Below are positions 3,575 through 8,500 of a DNA stretch of 64,000 nt, piece after piece. Position 1 is the first letter of the stretch, and every line of letters begins with the position of its first letter. The stretch covers positions 930,001 to 994,000 of the forward strand of contig MU271147.1 in assembly GCA_021432605.1 (NCBI GenBank), given 5' to 3'. The notes beneath the pieces are model-generated. The model saw only the letters and a list, made by a program, of their open reading frames with translations. It made no database searches and was not told the origin of the DNA. A program made the position numbers and the translations under genes. This DNA is from Coniochaeta sp. PMI_546 (lineage: Eukaryota > Ascomycota > Sordariomycetes > Coniochaetales > Coniochaetaceae).

Positions 3575-4432
3575 CTATTCCATCAACCTTGGGTTGGGAT
3601 CGAAGTCAAGCCTGCGTTCCGCTTCCCAGGTGTGGTAGTCAGCCTTTATGTCCGGCATCACCAAGTCTGGTATCCTCGACTCTGGTTTAGACACAACAGC
3701 TTCCCTTTGCTTCACTTCAGCATACGTAGACCGTATCTCCTGATGCTTCTTATACGACTTCTGCAGCTCGACCTCACAAATCCACGCGAGAGTGAACAGG
3801 GCTTCCATGGATGGGAGCCTGCCACGCTGGAACTCCGGTACGTACTTCAGATACTCTATCTCTTCTTCCGGCTGCTGCCTCTGCTGCGGCGACGATGAGC
3901 CATCGTCCGCGTCAGTCGTCGGCCAGTCAGCTCCATCGACCATGTCGACGTCCAAAGTCTTCTTAGAGACCACCAACCGCAATACCTCCAACGTCGCATC
4001 CTTCAAGGGACGCGCCAGATGGGGGCTGCAGGAAAGGATCCGCCGAAGACTCCGTAGTCGCAAAGTCGGGGAGCGAGAGGCCGGCGCCTGCGCGGTCGCT
4101 GGGACCGTGCTGCTGCTGTTGGCGCTCGCCGGTAGAGGAGAGGTTGATATCGTCTGTGAGGAACTCGGTGATGTCGAAGTGGTCGTATTGGCTGCCTCCC
4201 GGGAAGTATGCCGCCGAGTCGTCACGAACCAGATGATCGTATTCAAAATGGCTGGCGTCGGGGGAAGCGAGAAGCCCGCTCTCATCGACATAGCCACCTG
4301 TAGGAGTGGACGCTGACACGCCGAAAGTATCAAGAGCTGAAGAGGAAACAAGAGAGTCCGGAAGAGCCATAGCTGCTGTTGAACCGAGGCCGTAAGCTGC
4401 GACTGAGGAGGTGCTTCCGCCGACCGACACTG
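3575..4432 (-). other. Alternative reading frame of unspliced hac1 mRNA
   Basis: If the 23-nt intron is kept, the bZIP frame stays open to a TAA ending at 3575, adding roughly 290 residues in a different frame from the spliced protein. The first part overlaps the spliced coding sequence and contains a hydrophobic segment (LWLFRTLLFPLQLLIL, 4324-4373). The part past the spliced stop (3575-3962) looks protein-like. It has an acidic Gln/Pro-rich stretch, then MEALFTLAWICEVELQKSYK and a charged tail ending FDPNPRLME. Whether it is translated is unknown. It could also be a 3' UTR that is open by chance, or a separate small ORF. Confidence 0.5.
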
Positions 4433-5346
4433 CAGGTCTGAGCACAACTTCACGGCAGGAAGTTGTGTCGCATCGGGGGAAGTCTCCTCGGTAGTAGCGG
4501 GGGCCTCGGCAACAGGTGCGGCCGTTGTGGATGACTCGTTCTGAGCGAGCCACTCCTCTTCGTCTTCCTCGGGGACGGGACAGAGCGTGGGAGATAGTGA
4601 GGCGGGGTTGACGGTATTGCTCGATTGGGACGTCATGAGGATACCGTCCATTAGGGAAGAAGTTGTTGTCTGGGAAGCCATATGGCCGTCTTGAGAGTTG
4701 AACAACTCTTGGGAGAATGTGATGGGGTTCGGCCGGAGGGCGTCGAATGATGACGAGGCACCCGAAGAGCCCAGCTTCTGGAGGAGCTCTTCGATAATGT
4801 GGTGAGCCTTGTCGAGCTTGTCGACGAGTTCTTGGTTCTTTTTCTCAAGCGCCTCGACCTCCTGGCGCTTGCGCTCGCGAGATGACTGAGCAGCTCGCCG
4901 ATTGCGGAGGACACGCTCGACTCTGCGTTGCTCCTTCTCGTCTTCTGTCTTGGCGCGCTTTCTGTGGGACGAATTAGTAGCTATCTCAGAAACCGGACCG
5001 CGACAATCCTTTCTTACCTTGGAGGGAGGTTAGTCTTTGGTTCTGGAAGGACCTGACCCCACGACTTCCTCTTCTTCGTTTGCTTCTTTTCGCCTGCACC
5101 CGGTTCTGGCGTCGATGACGCTGCGTCCTGGTCGGCAGCTGATTGAGAAGGGTTATCGTTGTGCCTCTCATCATCGGCGTGTGTTGACTCGGGCGTCATG
5201 ATGTCTCGAGGATTCATAGTCGATGGCATAGGCGAGTTTCCAAAGAGACTAGGATACTCGCCACCTGGTGTTGACATGAAGGACTCGGTTGGCGAGGGCT
5301 CAAACTTCAAGTTCGGCTCCGGTGTTCCGTAGTCGTAGGAATCCAT
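3963..5346 (-). CDS. hac1: HAC1/HacA bZIP transcription factor of the unfolded protein response
   Basis: Master regulator of the ER unfolded protein response, made active when Ire1 removes a short non-spliceosomal intron from its mRNA. Exons of the spliced form: 5346-5018, 4961-4456 and 4432-3963, 434 residues. A conventional 56-nt intron (GTAAGA..CACAG) lies at 4962-5017, and a 23-nt Ire1-type intron at 4433-4455. The N-terminus has the HacA hallmark KKRKSWGQVLPEPKTNLPPR. It is followed by the bZIP basic region (RVLRNRRAAQSSRERKR) and a heptad-leucine coiled coil. After removal of the 23 nt the reading becomes TQLPAVSVGG, and the protein ends SGASLEGCDVGGIAVGG, closely matching the Trichoderma HAC1 C-terminus as I remember it. 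The start is the first ATG in frame; the open frame further upstream has none. Without Ire1 splicing the frame runs on to 3575, giving about 571 residues. Confidence 0.95.
4433..4455 (-). promoter_or_regulatory. Ire1-type non-spliceosomal 23-nt intron of hac1
   Basis: Two seven-base loops of the Ire1 consensus CNG|CNGN are present in the mRNA sense: CTGCCGT and CTGCAGT, exactly 23 nt apart. The first is closed by a perfect 7-bp stem (CAACTTC with GAAGTTG, 4465-4445). The second is closed by at least GAC/GTC (4438-4426). Cleavage after the third loop base on each side removes 23 nt and shifts translation into the frame that encodes the conserved HacA C-terminus. The fungal introns of this type that I know of are about 20-23 nt. 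Boundaries follow from loop symmetry and frame; they are not experimentally shown here. Confidence 0.9.
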
Positions 5347-5410: not shown

Positions 5411-5488
5411 TCAAGCGTTGTTGCGTTGAGAAATGGTGGTAAGGATATGGAGGGCTGTATCGAGGCGCCGTCCCAGTTCCTGATACAT
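5411..5488 (-). promoter_or_regulatory. Upstream ORF in the hac1 leader (25 codons plus stop)
   Basis: An ATG at 5488 opens a 25-codon frame beginning MYQELGRRLDTALHI and ending in TGA at 5411-5413, 64 nt before the hac1 start codon. A minimal ATG-GAT-TGA frame precedes it at 5513. Upstream ORFs that repress translation, and leader shortening that removes them under ER stress, are known for Trichoderma hac1 and Aspergillus hacA. Its role here is inferred from that precedent and position. Confidence 0.55.
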
Positions 5489-5513
5489 ATAGCCCAGTAG
5501 GGTTTCAATCCAT

Positions 5514-8500
5514 ATGATAATGGTACGTGTACAAAGTTCAATGACTCAGAGTACTGAACTATACCGCACTGGGTGTACTGCGTTTAGTTGGGGTTTGAAT
5601 GAGTATGCTGTGTGGTGATTCAAAAGTGTCTGAAGTCGAAGCCTGGAGGTCCGGAAGAGTGGGAGGACGTCAGCTCTTTATCATGAAAGGACACGTTGCC
5701 CTTAACAAAGGGGGTGCGGACGAGGAGACCACTCTGATTGGTCAGAGGGTATCCTGGTGGATGAGCAAGGGTCCTCAGGGGGGCAGTGTGTGGGGCCGTA
5801 GACGAGCGGCGACATTGACGGAAGGAGCAAAACAGGAATAGCTCCGAAGGGGGGACAACCTCCATTTCTAGGTCCACTTTGTAGGTGCGAGAATAATAAA
5901 TCGATCGACGCAAGGGAGCCTGTCACTCTTAGCAAATGCTAAATCATCACTGAGGCCTGGCAAAGGATACACATACGACAGACGTTGTTAGCAGACAGCC
6001 TTGTGTCAACTTGACTCGAGTGAGACTGAGGTTCAAGCTTGATGAACAACCGGTGAGCGCCATCGACAGGTGATACCGTATGTCAGCCGCAGCATGTAAG
6101 TAAGATGGTTCAGGAGTAAGCCAAGTTGGTATGTGTACGACCAGGCATCGCATGTACCAGCGTATTGATCCCCTTATTCGGGTGCACGGTGGTATTCTGC
6201 CGGGACTGCTGCAGGAGAACACAATGTGGTACATACATCTGGGCCAACCTCCTTCCATATCCGAAGCTCCACTAGCCAGCGAACTCATGATGCCAGGCAG
6301 GCAGAATGGCAGAAGCGATATATCCAAATCGGGCAGCTGGCTGATTAGGTACTTCATGGCAGAGGAGACAGTCTCTCTCCTGGACCAAATGTACCCCCAA
6401 GCCGAATCTTCGTATTTTGTGTGGCTTTGATAACAAGCTCAGCCTCAGCATCCACAGTTGTCATTGCTGGTTGACCACATAGGTTTGAGATTTCCGTCGC
6501 GACACTGTCGCAGATGTGCCGGAAAAACTCATAGCGTCCGGTTGTGAAGTCTTTGGGTCTGGCAATGAACAAGACTTCAGGTATTGCACTGAGTAAAGAT
6601 TTGCCTCCAAATGCATTTTCTTGGCTCCGACACTCAACATTATGCTAGGTATCTCTGTAAATTTAGCCCTTCAATACGATGCAACAATTAGGCTTCCTGT
6701 CGTGCGTCTGTCGAGATTTCTAGGCACCATTGTGTGGTTCAGAGCTTTAAAGTTAGACGGCGGCCCGCACCCTCACTCTTTCTGGCGGCGTCCTGCCGTG
6801 CTCTGCATGCAGATTTCGACGAGCAGTCTCGGAGTGTCTGTGGGATTGCTGTATAGGGATACGTTACCCAAGGGTCGCACACTATCCCTCGGGCCTTTCC
6901 TTGGATGGTGCATGGAATCGATTTGACGGACGCAATCCATCGTCGCTCCGAGATTTGGAGCCAGGGGGAAATCCGGAGTGTCGCAGCCGTGTGGGGTATG
7001 GAGGGTAGATTTTGAGCCTCTCGGCCCGCTTGCCGCTTGCTTCGTTCATGCTTCTCTGACTTTCGCGTGCCGACTCTTCCACTCTCACGCATCAAGTGCC
7101 GGGTATAATGCTGAGTACCAAGATGCTCGTTGAATCTGGGGTAATAAATGTCTAGTGGCTATTGATTGCCCTTTTGTGCTACGAACTTGATGATTGGCCT
7201 ACAGTCCCGGAATTCGAGAACCGTTTTGTTACTAACACCCAGCCTCGCCACCACTGATCTATGATAGCCCTCGGCGTGTTTTAGGACATTGTTGGACCGG
7301 GCCGTTGAAACATAGACTGAGCTAACGGATGACCGCTTCTGGACCCGGACCACTTTAGCTGTTGGTCCATCAAACTCCGTTGCTTCGTGATGGCCGGAAT
7401 GCGGTTCGAGGTATATTGTTGCTTGATGCCGCACGCTGCCCGTTCCGGCTCGCTGGCAGTCGTATTGAGTCGTTTTGGAGGCAGAATGTCGCATGACCTG
7501 TCGACCATGTACCTCTCTTACCGTAGACCTGGTGCAGAAATCAAGCATTAGTTTGGGCTTTAGACAACCGCTCTATTATGACAACTTCCTTTCCGTCTTC
7601 ACCAACGCACTTAGCCTTCGTCTCTAAATCATGGTATGGGCAAGAGCTGCCCTGAGATCGACTGTCTGTCTTGCCTAGGTAGTGCGGATAGAGCGGGTTC
7701 CTCAACCCTGGACCACTCTCTGCGATCTGTTTGTGACGAAACATGCAACCCAAACAGCCACATGTCAACTTGGACGGCGCACACGAAGGGGCATATGTTC
7801 GCGTGTGGGTGGTCATTGTCTAAGTTCCGCCGTGAACTCACGGGGAGTCAGAGAAGTCGGAGGACTACTTGAGGCTCTGCTGTGGGGACGCCTTGTTGCG
7901 CAACACCGCCACCGACTGGATCTCTGTGAAGTTATGAGAGACAACCTTACTCTTTGGCTACTGGTTAGCCAGTGGCGAAGCCGCAATGTAGCGATGAGCT
8001 TGTCAGATTACTTACGCTTACCAAGGATTGAAGCCGTGAAGCGTTGCAACAGTAACACGACTTCTAGCTCGTCCAAGTCTTGCGTGAAAGAATTGCACTC
8101 GAAGGCGACGAGGAGACTGAGACCAAATTCCCAGAAGTTATGGTTGACGGACTGGTGGCAGCTGGAAAAGAATCAAGGACCTTCGCCAGAAGCTCTAGAT
8201 ACTGAAAAGGAGGGAAAGGTTGAAGGTAAAAGAACAACTCCTGTTCTCGAACCCGGCTGGGTCAGGACCTACCTGTCTGAAGGTTGACATTCAAAGGAAC
8301 GCGCTAGAACATACGCCTCTACATGGTGTTCGTCTGGGAGGAACTTCCAGCCAATGTAGAATAGGAGATATGGCTTCTGTACCAGGCAGGATTTGCAGTA
8401 CTAAGTTCATTGGGACTATAGACTTTGTGCTGAGGACGAAGCGTCGGTGTGTTCCAGGCATATGTAGAGATCGCGACCAGCCTATACGTATTGGCACAGT

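Follow-up and report, generated by a model that had tools for sequence, protein, structure and literature searches.

Evidence for a second, selected reading frame in the unspliced hac1 mRNA of Sordariomycetes

In mammals, IRE1 takes out a 26-nt intron from the XBP1 mRNA and swaps the tail of the encoded protein. The tail of the unspliced form, XBP1u, contains a hydrophobic region, and XBP1u pairs with the spliced form via its zipper and restrains the response. The plant factor bZIP60u has a clear membrane span. Like HAC1u of fungi, it is an unspliced form with a different tail that is removed by IRE1 splicing, and it has been described as an unstable protein, located at the ER under proteasome inhibition (PMC4393087). 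A constraint acting on both frames of XBP1 was argued by Nekrutenko and He 2006, as cited in PMC7580959. HAC1u of Saccharomyces cerevisiae is again the product of an IRE1 substrate, a bZIP factor with an alternative tail; there the intron is 252 nt long and comes with a stop, a 10-aa degron and a 5'UTR-intron block (PMC8071499, PMC4488935, PMC8002603).

Long HAC1u frames are in print for N. crassa, V. dahliae, A. fumigatus, A. nidulans, M. thermophila and C. fructicola (PMC8071499, PMC4488935, PMC2606855, PMC7044415, PMC12310822, PMC12162442). The lengths given are 580 aa in N. crassa, 526/417 in V. dahliae, 571/448 in M. thermophila, 415 + 110 = 525/415 in C. fructicola, 433/342 in A. fumigatus and 441/350 in A. 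nidulans. T. rubrum, at 402 and 395 aa, is reported with almost no extension (PMC7044415), and the extension may therefore have been lost there. The authors of the A. fumigatus work suggested that HacAu is itself functional and that it may act at the ER (PMC7580959). An earlier note on the DNA described here supposed that a fungal HAC1u with a membrane-targeting or inhibitory tail would be new; with six species and a proposed function already in print, that view has to be given up. The printed accounts, as far as they were accessible, consist of lengths and schemes and report neither conservation of the tail nor a conserved block beyond the spliced stop. Also, among titles and the beginnings of abstracts, in a coverage that lies outside most subscription journals, no paper was found to test whether filamentous fungi conserve the alternative tail.

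The hac1 locus and its two products

The window, a stretch of 64,000 nucleotides from Coniochaeta sp. PMI_546 (contig MU271147.1), carries on its minus strand a hac1 gene that begins at ATG 5346 and encodes a bZIP factor (PF07716 at 30.6 bits, cut-off 22.3). Its coordinates were rechecked and are as follows.

5018..5346, minus strand: exon 1, the N terminus common to both forms (ATG at 5346, GT at 5017)
4962..5017, minus strand: conventional 56-nt intron, GTAAG...CACAG (relatives' proteins run across the join as NLPP-RKRAKTED)
3575..4961, minus strand: exon 2 in the unspliced (HAC1u) frame, with the bZIP at its start (stop 3577-3575)
3963..4432, minus strand: exon 2 in the spliced (HAC1i) frame (stop 3965-3963)
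4433..4455, minus strand: putative non-canonical 23-nt IRE1-type intron, CTG-CCGTGAAGTTGTGCTCAGACCTG-CAG (two CTG'CNG sites)
4412..4484, minus strand: IRE1 substrate hairpins, Rfam RF04247 'Hac1/Xbp1 intron' (E 8.5e-05; 37.1 bits, just below the gathering score of 41)
3578..3961, minus strand: HAC1u-only extension beyond the spliced stop (codon score, 0 stops)

The IRE1 cleavage positions were placed by consensus of the sites, CTG'CCG and CTG'CAG, which stand 23 nt apart in the arrangement of a short intron between CNG'CNG sites; the fold of the surrounding hairpin region has a z score of -1.66. When the 23-nt intron is kept, the product is HAC1u, of 571 aa; its removal shifts the frame and gives HAC1i, of 434 aa, with a different tail. 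The two share 280 aa, followed by tails of 291 aa in HAC1u and 154 aa in HAC1i. The HAC1u frame overlaps that of HAC1i from the intron to 3963 and then continues alone for 388 nt. These values agree with those of the earlier note, which had described a 23-nt intron and a tail of about 290 residues in a frame open for about 880 nt, 388 nt of it beyond the spliced stop.

The locus has the same short intron and the same long alternative tail as the fungal HAC1u/HacAu genes in print, and is the same gene. As in XBP1, a short intron would be removed and the tail swapped, whereas in hac1 of the window it is the unspliced protein that is the longer. The status of IRE1 substrate, the bZIP factor and the alternative tail are common to S. 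cerevisiae also, but the long intron with stop and degron of that species is not matched here: the 23-nt intron has no internal stop.

Upstream of hac1, ATGs open short frames at 5411-5488, 5505-5513 and 5670-5684 on the minus strand (25, 2 and 4 codons), and further ATGs stand at 5815 and 5865, which may or may not fall within the hac1 mRNA. Such short frames agree with the control by uORFs or by the 5'UTR that is mentioned for fungal hac1 (PMC8071499).

Openness, conservation and constraint of the HAC1u frame

Codon usage for the null models was taken from 27 mechanically chosen ORFs of this genome (17,127 codons). With the spliced protein fixed and this codon usage applied, the HAC1u frame was open over the 154 overlapping codons in 1.9% of 20,000 simulations. 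Because it stays open in 69% of cases when the gene's own codons are shuffled among synonymous sites, openness alone is weak evidence. The signal is better beyond the spliced stop, where the HAC1u frame has the best codon score of the six frames (+0.206 bits per codon, 0 stops), the other five ranging from -0.22 to +0.03 bits per codon with 1-8 stops. GC content by codon position is gene-like in this extension, at 0.59/0.38/0.67 compared with 0.58/0.48/0.66 in the genome ORFs. From one genome alone, the case for a non-accidental HAC1u frame is modest. The strong evidence for the tail, as judged from sequence comparison, is its conservation rather than its openness or its hydropathy.

Protein searches with the HAC1u frame returned three sets of 22, 219 and 257 matches, of which the best 22, 120 and 120 were used. 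The comparison set consists of the 205 distinct database proteins among the matches listed and the protein of the window, 206 in total; all 205 were recovered via the HAC1u frame, and the search shows solely proteins that keep it. Stops or frameshifts in relatives, which the earlier note regarded as grounds for abandoning the frame, occur in none of these 205 proteins, recovered as they were through that frame. The printed length for V. dahliae is found again in P0170 of the set, from the same species (526), that for C. fructicola in P0132 from C. chrysophilum (525), and that for M. thermophila in P0025 from Thermothelomyces hinnuleus (571). The named relatives whose taxonomy was looked up belong to seven orders of Sordariomycetes: Sordariales (Neurospora), Chaetosphaeriales (Thozetella), Magnaporthales (Magnaporthiopsis), Glomerellales (Colletotrichum), Hypocreales (Purpureocillium), Xylariales (Xylaria) and Amphisphaeriales (Truncatella). 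In a tree of the shared region of HAC1 (45 sequences, with many weak forks) the window falls within the Sordariomycetes, close to Sordariales, Chaetosphaeriales and Magnaporthiopsis.

Four parts of the tail stand out.

4325..4372, minus strand: hydrophobic stretch LWLFRTLLFPLQLLIL (hydropathy, composition in relatives)
4220..4324, minus strand: conserved overlap block 1, SACQRPL...TPAILNTIIWFVT (four-fold wobble identity, conservative mismatches)
3965..4075, minus strand: conserved overlap block 2, TLRLRSLRRILSCSPHLARPLKDATLEVLRLV (four-fold wobble identity, predicted helices)
3746..3826, minus strand: conserved post-stop block, LPSMEALFTLAWICEVELQ in the window and LPSKEVLLTLLWALRVEERR in consensus (Trp in 206/206, predicted helix)

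In the joint alignment the Trp of the post-stop block is kept in all 206 proteins, and a loose motif for the block is matched by 195 of them; P406, L411 and W416 of HAC1u are invariant in both alignments. In and beside overlap block 1 (236-272), 9 of 37 residues are the same in all 14 representatives; for block 2 (320-356) the figure is 16 of 37, and for the post-stop block 8 of 27. The IRE1 intron, as translated, is of 20 nt in 132 proteins, 23 nt in 70, 26 nt in 1 and 32 nt in 1 (204 of 206). These lengths are all equal modulo 3, a regularity that is partly built in because the search finds solely kept frames.

Two odd gene models of the 206, P0148 and P0182, are without 7 or 8 residues over the IRE1 intron (they read 'PAC'), as if annotation had taken out an in-frame piece. 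Separately, the window's clade (P0001-P0006) has the VEERR part and the basic end of the tail, kept by most other proteins of the set, lost or replaced (residues 417-484 of P0001). This would reflect either a function that changed in the lineage or a relaxed end of the tail.

Owing to the geometry of the overlap, HAC1i wobble bases fall at the middle position of HAC1u codons, and since an amino acid fixes that position (Ser excepted), they can be read from HAC1u proteins alone. Relatives were compared as proteins, and the wobble expectation assumes that their spliced residues are those of the window. In 5,222 pairs whose shared regions are less than 40% identical, agreement at four-fold wobble sites was 0.64 for residues 215-235, 0.73 for 236-270 (block 1), 0.39 for 271-318 and 0.81 for 319-355 (block 2), where codon usage leads one to expect about 0.28. 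With one protein per lineage (eight, the window included), agreement was 0.54 for residues 207-235, 0.82 in block 1, 0.38 for 271-318 and 0.80 in block 2. The overlap taken as a whole gave 0.68, and the maxima reached by segment in 2,000 simulations were 0.34 to 0.36. At eight four-fold sites, T is implied by all 206 proteins, in a genome that ends 0.17 to 0.21 of such codons in T. The segment between the blocks (residues 271-318; 4076-4219, minus strand) lies at 0.38 against 0.27 expected and a simulated maximum of 0.36. Being near neutral though just over that maximum, it makes the dual coding patchy.

Replacements were examined in the mismatches of 200 relatives against the window protein, scored by mean BLOSUM, with single-base and middle-base changes as nulls. 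Mismatches average +0.24 in block 1 and +0.22 in block 2, compared with -0.56/-0.71 for single-base changes and -1.41/-1.46 for middle-base changes (overall to about -1.47); in the shared region, which served as control, they average -0.17 against a null of -0.43. Residues 215-235 (-0.95), 271-318 (-0.59) and 357-401 (-0.98) do not rise above the one-step null. Nor does the post-stop block when scored against the window's divergent sequence: at -0.53 it is level with the one-step null (-0.50), though above the saturated one (-1.29).

These data bear on the simplest alternative, that the frame is open and conserved merely through constraint on the DNA from the spliced frame and from RNA elements, with no protein meant. 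The ease with which the gene's own codons keep the frame open (0.69) would suit it, as would the IRE1 hairpins, which constrain the first part of the overlap. Against it, the wobble constraint comes with replacements that are conservative, among them K/R swaps at residues 326 and 330 that alter the HAC1i wobble base, which argues for constraint on protein, not RNA. Furthermore, a conserved, gene-like block lies where there is no overlap at all. We therefore regard this alternative as very improbable. With the post-stop Trp in 206 of 206 proteins, the wobble agreement and the conservative replacements, exon 2 appears to be dual-coding, and the HAC1u tail is very probably coding and under selection. 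The protein-like character that the earlier note saw in the alternative tail is borne out by the same Trp, by the wobble constraint and by the codon score beyond the stop. In essence, the frame, a coding signature beyond the spliced stop and amino-acid-level constraint over seven orders of Sordariomycetes are demonstrated by the comparison of sequences.

The hydrophobic stretch and the predicted structure of the tail

The earlier note likened the hydrophobic part of the tail to that of XBP1u, and allowed that it might instead be a by-product of reading an Ala/Ser-rich frame out of phase. In the window alone the signal is marginal: peak hydropathy over 19 residues is 1.73 compared with 0.93 +/- 0.36 (P 0.02; 0.06 against own-codon shuffles), and over 16 residues P is 0.04 (own-codon shuffles 0.11). 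Across relatives it is clearer: in 200 proteins from outside the window's clade, FLIMV accounts for 46% of the residues at 219-236, where 21% is expected (T-ending codons). This excess suggests that the stretch is no plain by-product of out-of-phase reading, and the alternative offered by the note is not borne out. The segment aligned to residues 216-237 has no charged residue in 110 of 206 proteins. In a 19-residue window, 117 of 206 reach a hydropathy of 1.6 within residues 207-245 (median 1.66), 28 of 206 do so in a second segment at residues 247-274 (median 1.32), and 133 of 206 in either. Conservation in the second segment (ILNTIIWLVT) ranks with the highest in the tail; other parts are better conserved than the first. 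The segments contain or adjoin Pro, Arg, Lys and Asn. Thus, of the proposed likeness to XBP1u, the hydrophobic character holds in relatives too, and the evidence for a membrane span is borderline (117/206), in which HAC1u would differ from bZIP60u. Membrane targeting and translational pausing of the XBP1u kind are hypothetical for HAC1u.

AlphaFold2, run on 462 residues with 120 sequences, gave a block mean pLDDT of 97 in the zipper, and means of 78-92 were reached by the helices of block 2 and of the post-stop block. When the tail was modeled by itself (236 residues; 149 rows including one repeat), the pTM was 0.54 and pLDDT means were 87-95 across most of these two blocks, namely 87-90 for most of block 2 and 88-95 in the post-stop block from its third residue. 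The first hydrophobic part is a low-confidence prediction (pLDDT below 65). Among the solved structures with which the predicted tail was compared, no match was found, including on a second look.

Through a hydrophobic region of this kind, HAC1u or the mRNA under translation might reach the ER membrane, so that IRE1 could cut the mRNA, as in XBP1u and bZIP60u. The excess of FLIMV residues, the frequently uncharged segment and the conservation of ILNTIIWLVT are all consistent with such delivery, but the hydropathy is borderline and marginal against own-codon shuffles, the segments are interrupted or flanked by Pro, Arg, Lys and Asn, and the first of them is poorly predicted. In unstressed C. 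fructicola, GFP::Hac1, tagged at the N terminus, is reported to be diffuse (PMC12162442), which also speaks against delivery; bZIP60u is seen at the ER solely with a proteasome inhibitor (PMC4393087), so the absence of a HAC1u signal there need not exclude it. On balance we consider delivery to the ER a possible, if unlikely, purpose of the tail.

A possible role for HAC1u

The explanations considered are not all mutually exclusive. The one we prefer is that exon 2 is dual-coding and that HAC1u is a short-lived, largely non-nuclear regulatory isoform; taken whole it seems somewhat probable to us, and for its functional part, in which HAC1u would act like mammalian XBP1u, the balance is about even. 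Before IRE1 acts, the mRNA would encode HAC1u, composed of the shared bZIP and a 291-aa tail in which a low-charge hydrophobic stretch is accompanied by a predicted helical core assembled from a conserved piece within the overlap with the spliced frame and another beyond its stop. In most relatives, though not in the window's clade, the tail would also carry a basic end. HAC1u would be made in unstressed cells and would hold the response down, through heterodimers that it may form with leaked or residual HAC1i via the shared zipper and through its lack of the HAC1i tail; its own tail probably keeps it out of the nucleus and short-lived. IRE1 splicing would then exchange this tail for the 154-aa tail of HAC1i. 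A regulatory isoform is the best reading because HAC1u would have the same zipper with another tail, would be present when the response is off and would be removed when IRE1 fires. In favor of such a role, GFP::Hac1 of C. fructicola, where both Hac1 forms are reported on a blot, collects in the nucleus solely with DTT (PMC12162442), A. fumigatus that lacks splicing alone is less impaired than the deletion strain (PMC7580959), and in U. maydis Cib1u has been suggested to act as a brake (PMC6988420). Against it, V. dahliae HAC1u with a 3' tag yielded no band, and V. dahliae with the spliced form alone is reported to be viable, with slower growth when unstressed (PMC8071499). No demonstration of inhibition by HAC1u was found in the accessible literature on filamentous fungi.

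The tail could instead be chiefly a degradation signal that clears leak protein of the unspliced mRNA, like the 10-aa degron of yeast Hac1u, which is more conserved than any other part of the yeast intron (PMC8002603). The failure to see a band for V. dahliae HAC1u tagged at its 3' end (HAC1u-HA; PMC8071499) would fit. A degron needs few residues, however, whereas here some 100 residues in three blocks, two of them with confident predicted helices, are kept across orders; also, a blot of Flag-Hac1u and Flag-Hac1s in C. fructicola is reported to reveal two proteins, Hac1u being visible (PMC12162442). We find it doubtful that degradation is the chief purpose.

HAC1u might also be an independent transcription factor that acts on different targets and has no inhibitory role. 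It retains the bZIP with its basic region, 161 of 206 proteins have a basic C-terminal end (by a loose pattern), and A. fumigatus keeps benefits of hacA without splicing, a block of splicing being milder than deletion of the gene (PMC7580959). Against this, the literature covered yielded no HAC1u-specific target genes, and the tagged C. fructicola protein is described as nuclear solely after DTT (PMC12162442); a separate factor strikes us as quite improbable.

Beyond the regulatory isoform that we prefer, one may go further and view IRE1 splicing as a domain swap between two selected proteins instead of the switching-on of a silent mRNA. HAC1u would then possess a hydrophobic region and a helical domain of its own, the latter encoded out of frame across the HAC1i tail and finished beyond the HAC1i stop, would act as a regulator at or near the ER, and would continue an arrangement common to XBP1u and bZIP60u by ancestry and not by repeated invention. 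This is speculative, and we hold it to be unlikely in full.

HAC1u of filamentous fungi has mostly been regarded as a precursor or a leak. The present analysis points to a tail held by selection over at least seven orders of one fungal class, partly where each base serves two proteins and partly where HAC1u alone is coded. Its conservation makes the role of HAC1u directly testable. Strains with constitutively spliced hacA would lose HAC1u entirely, and phenotypes of hacA deletion would combine the effects of losing both proteins, a suspicion already raised in the A. fumigatus work (PMC7580959).
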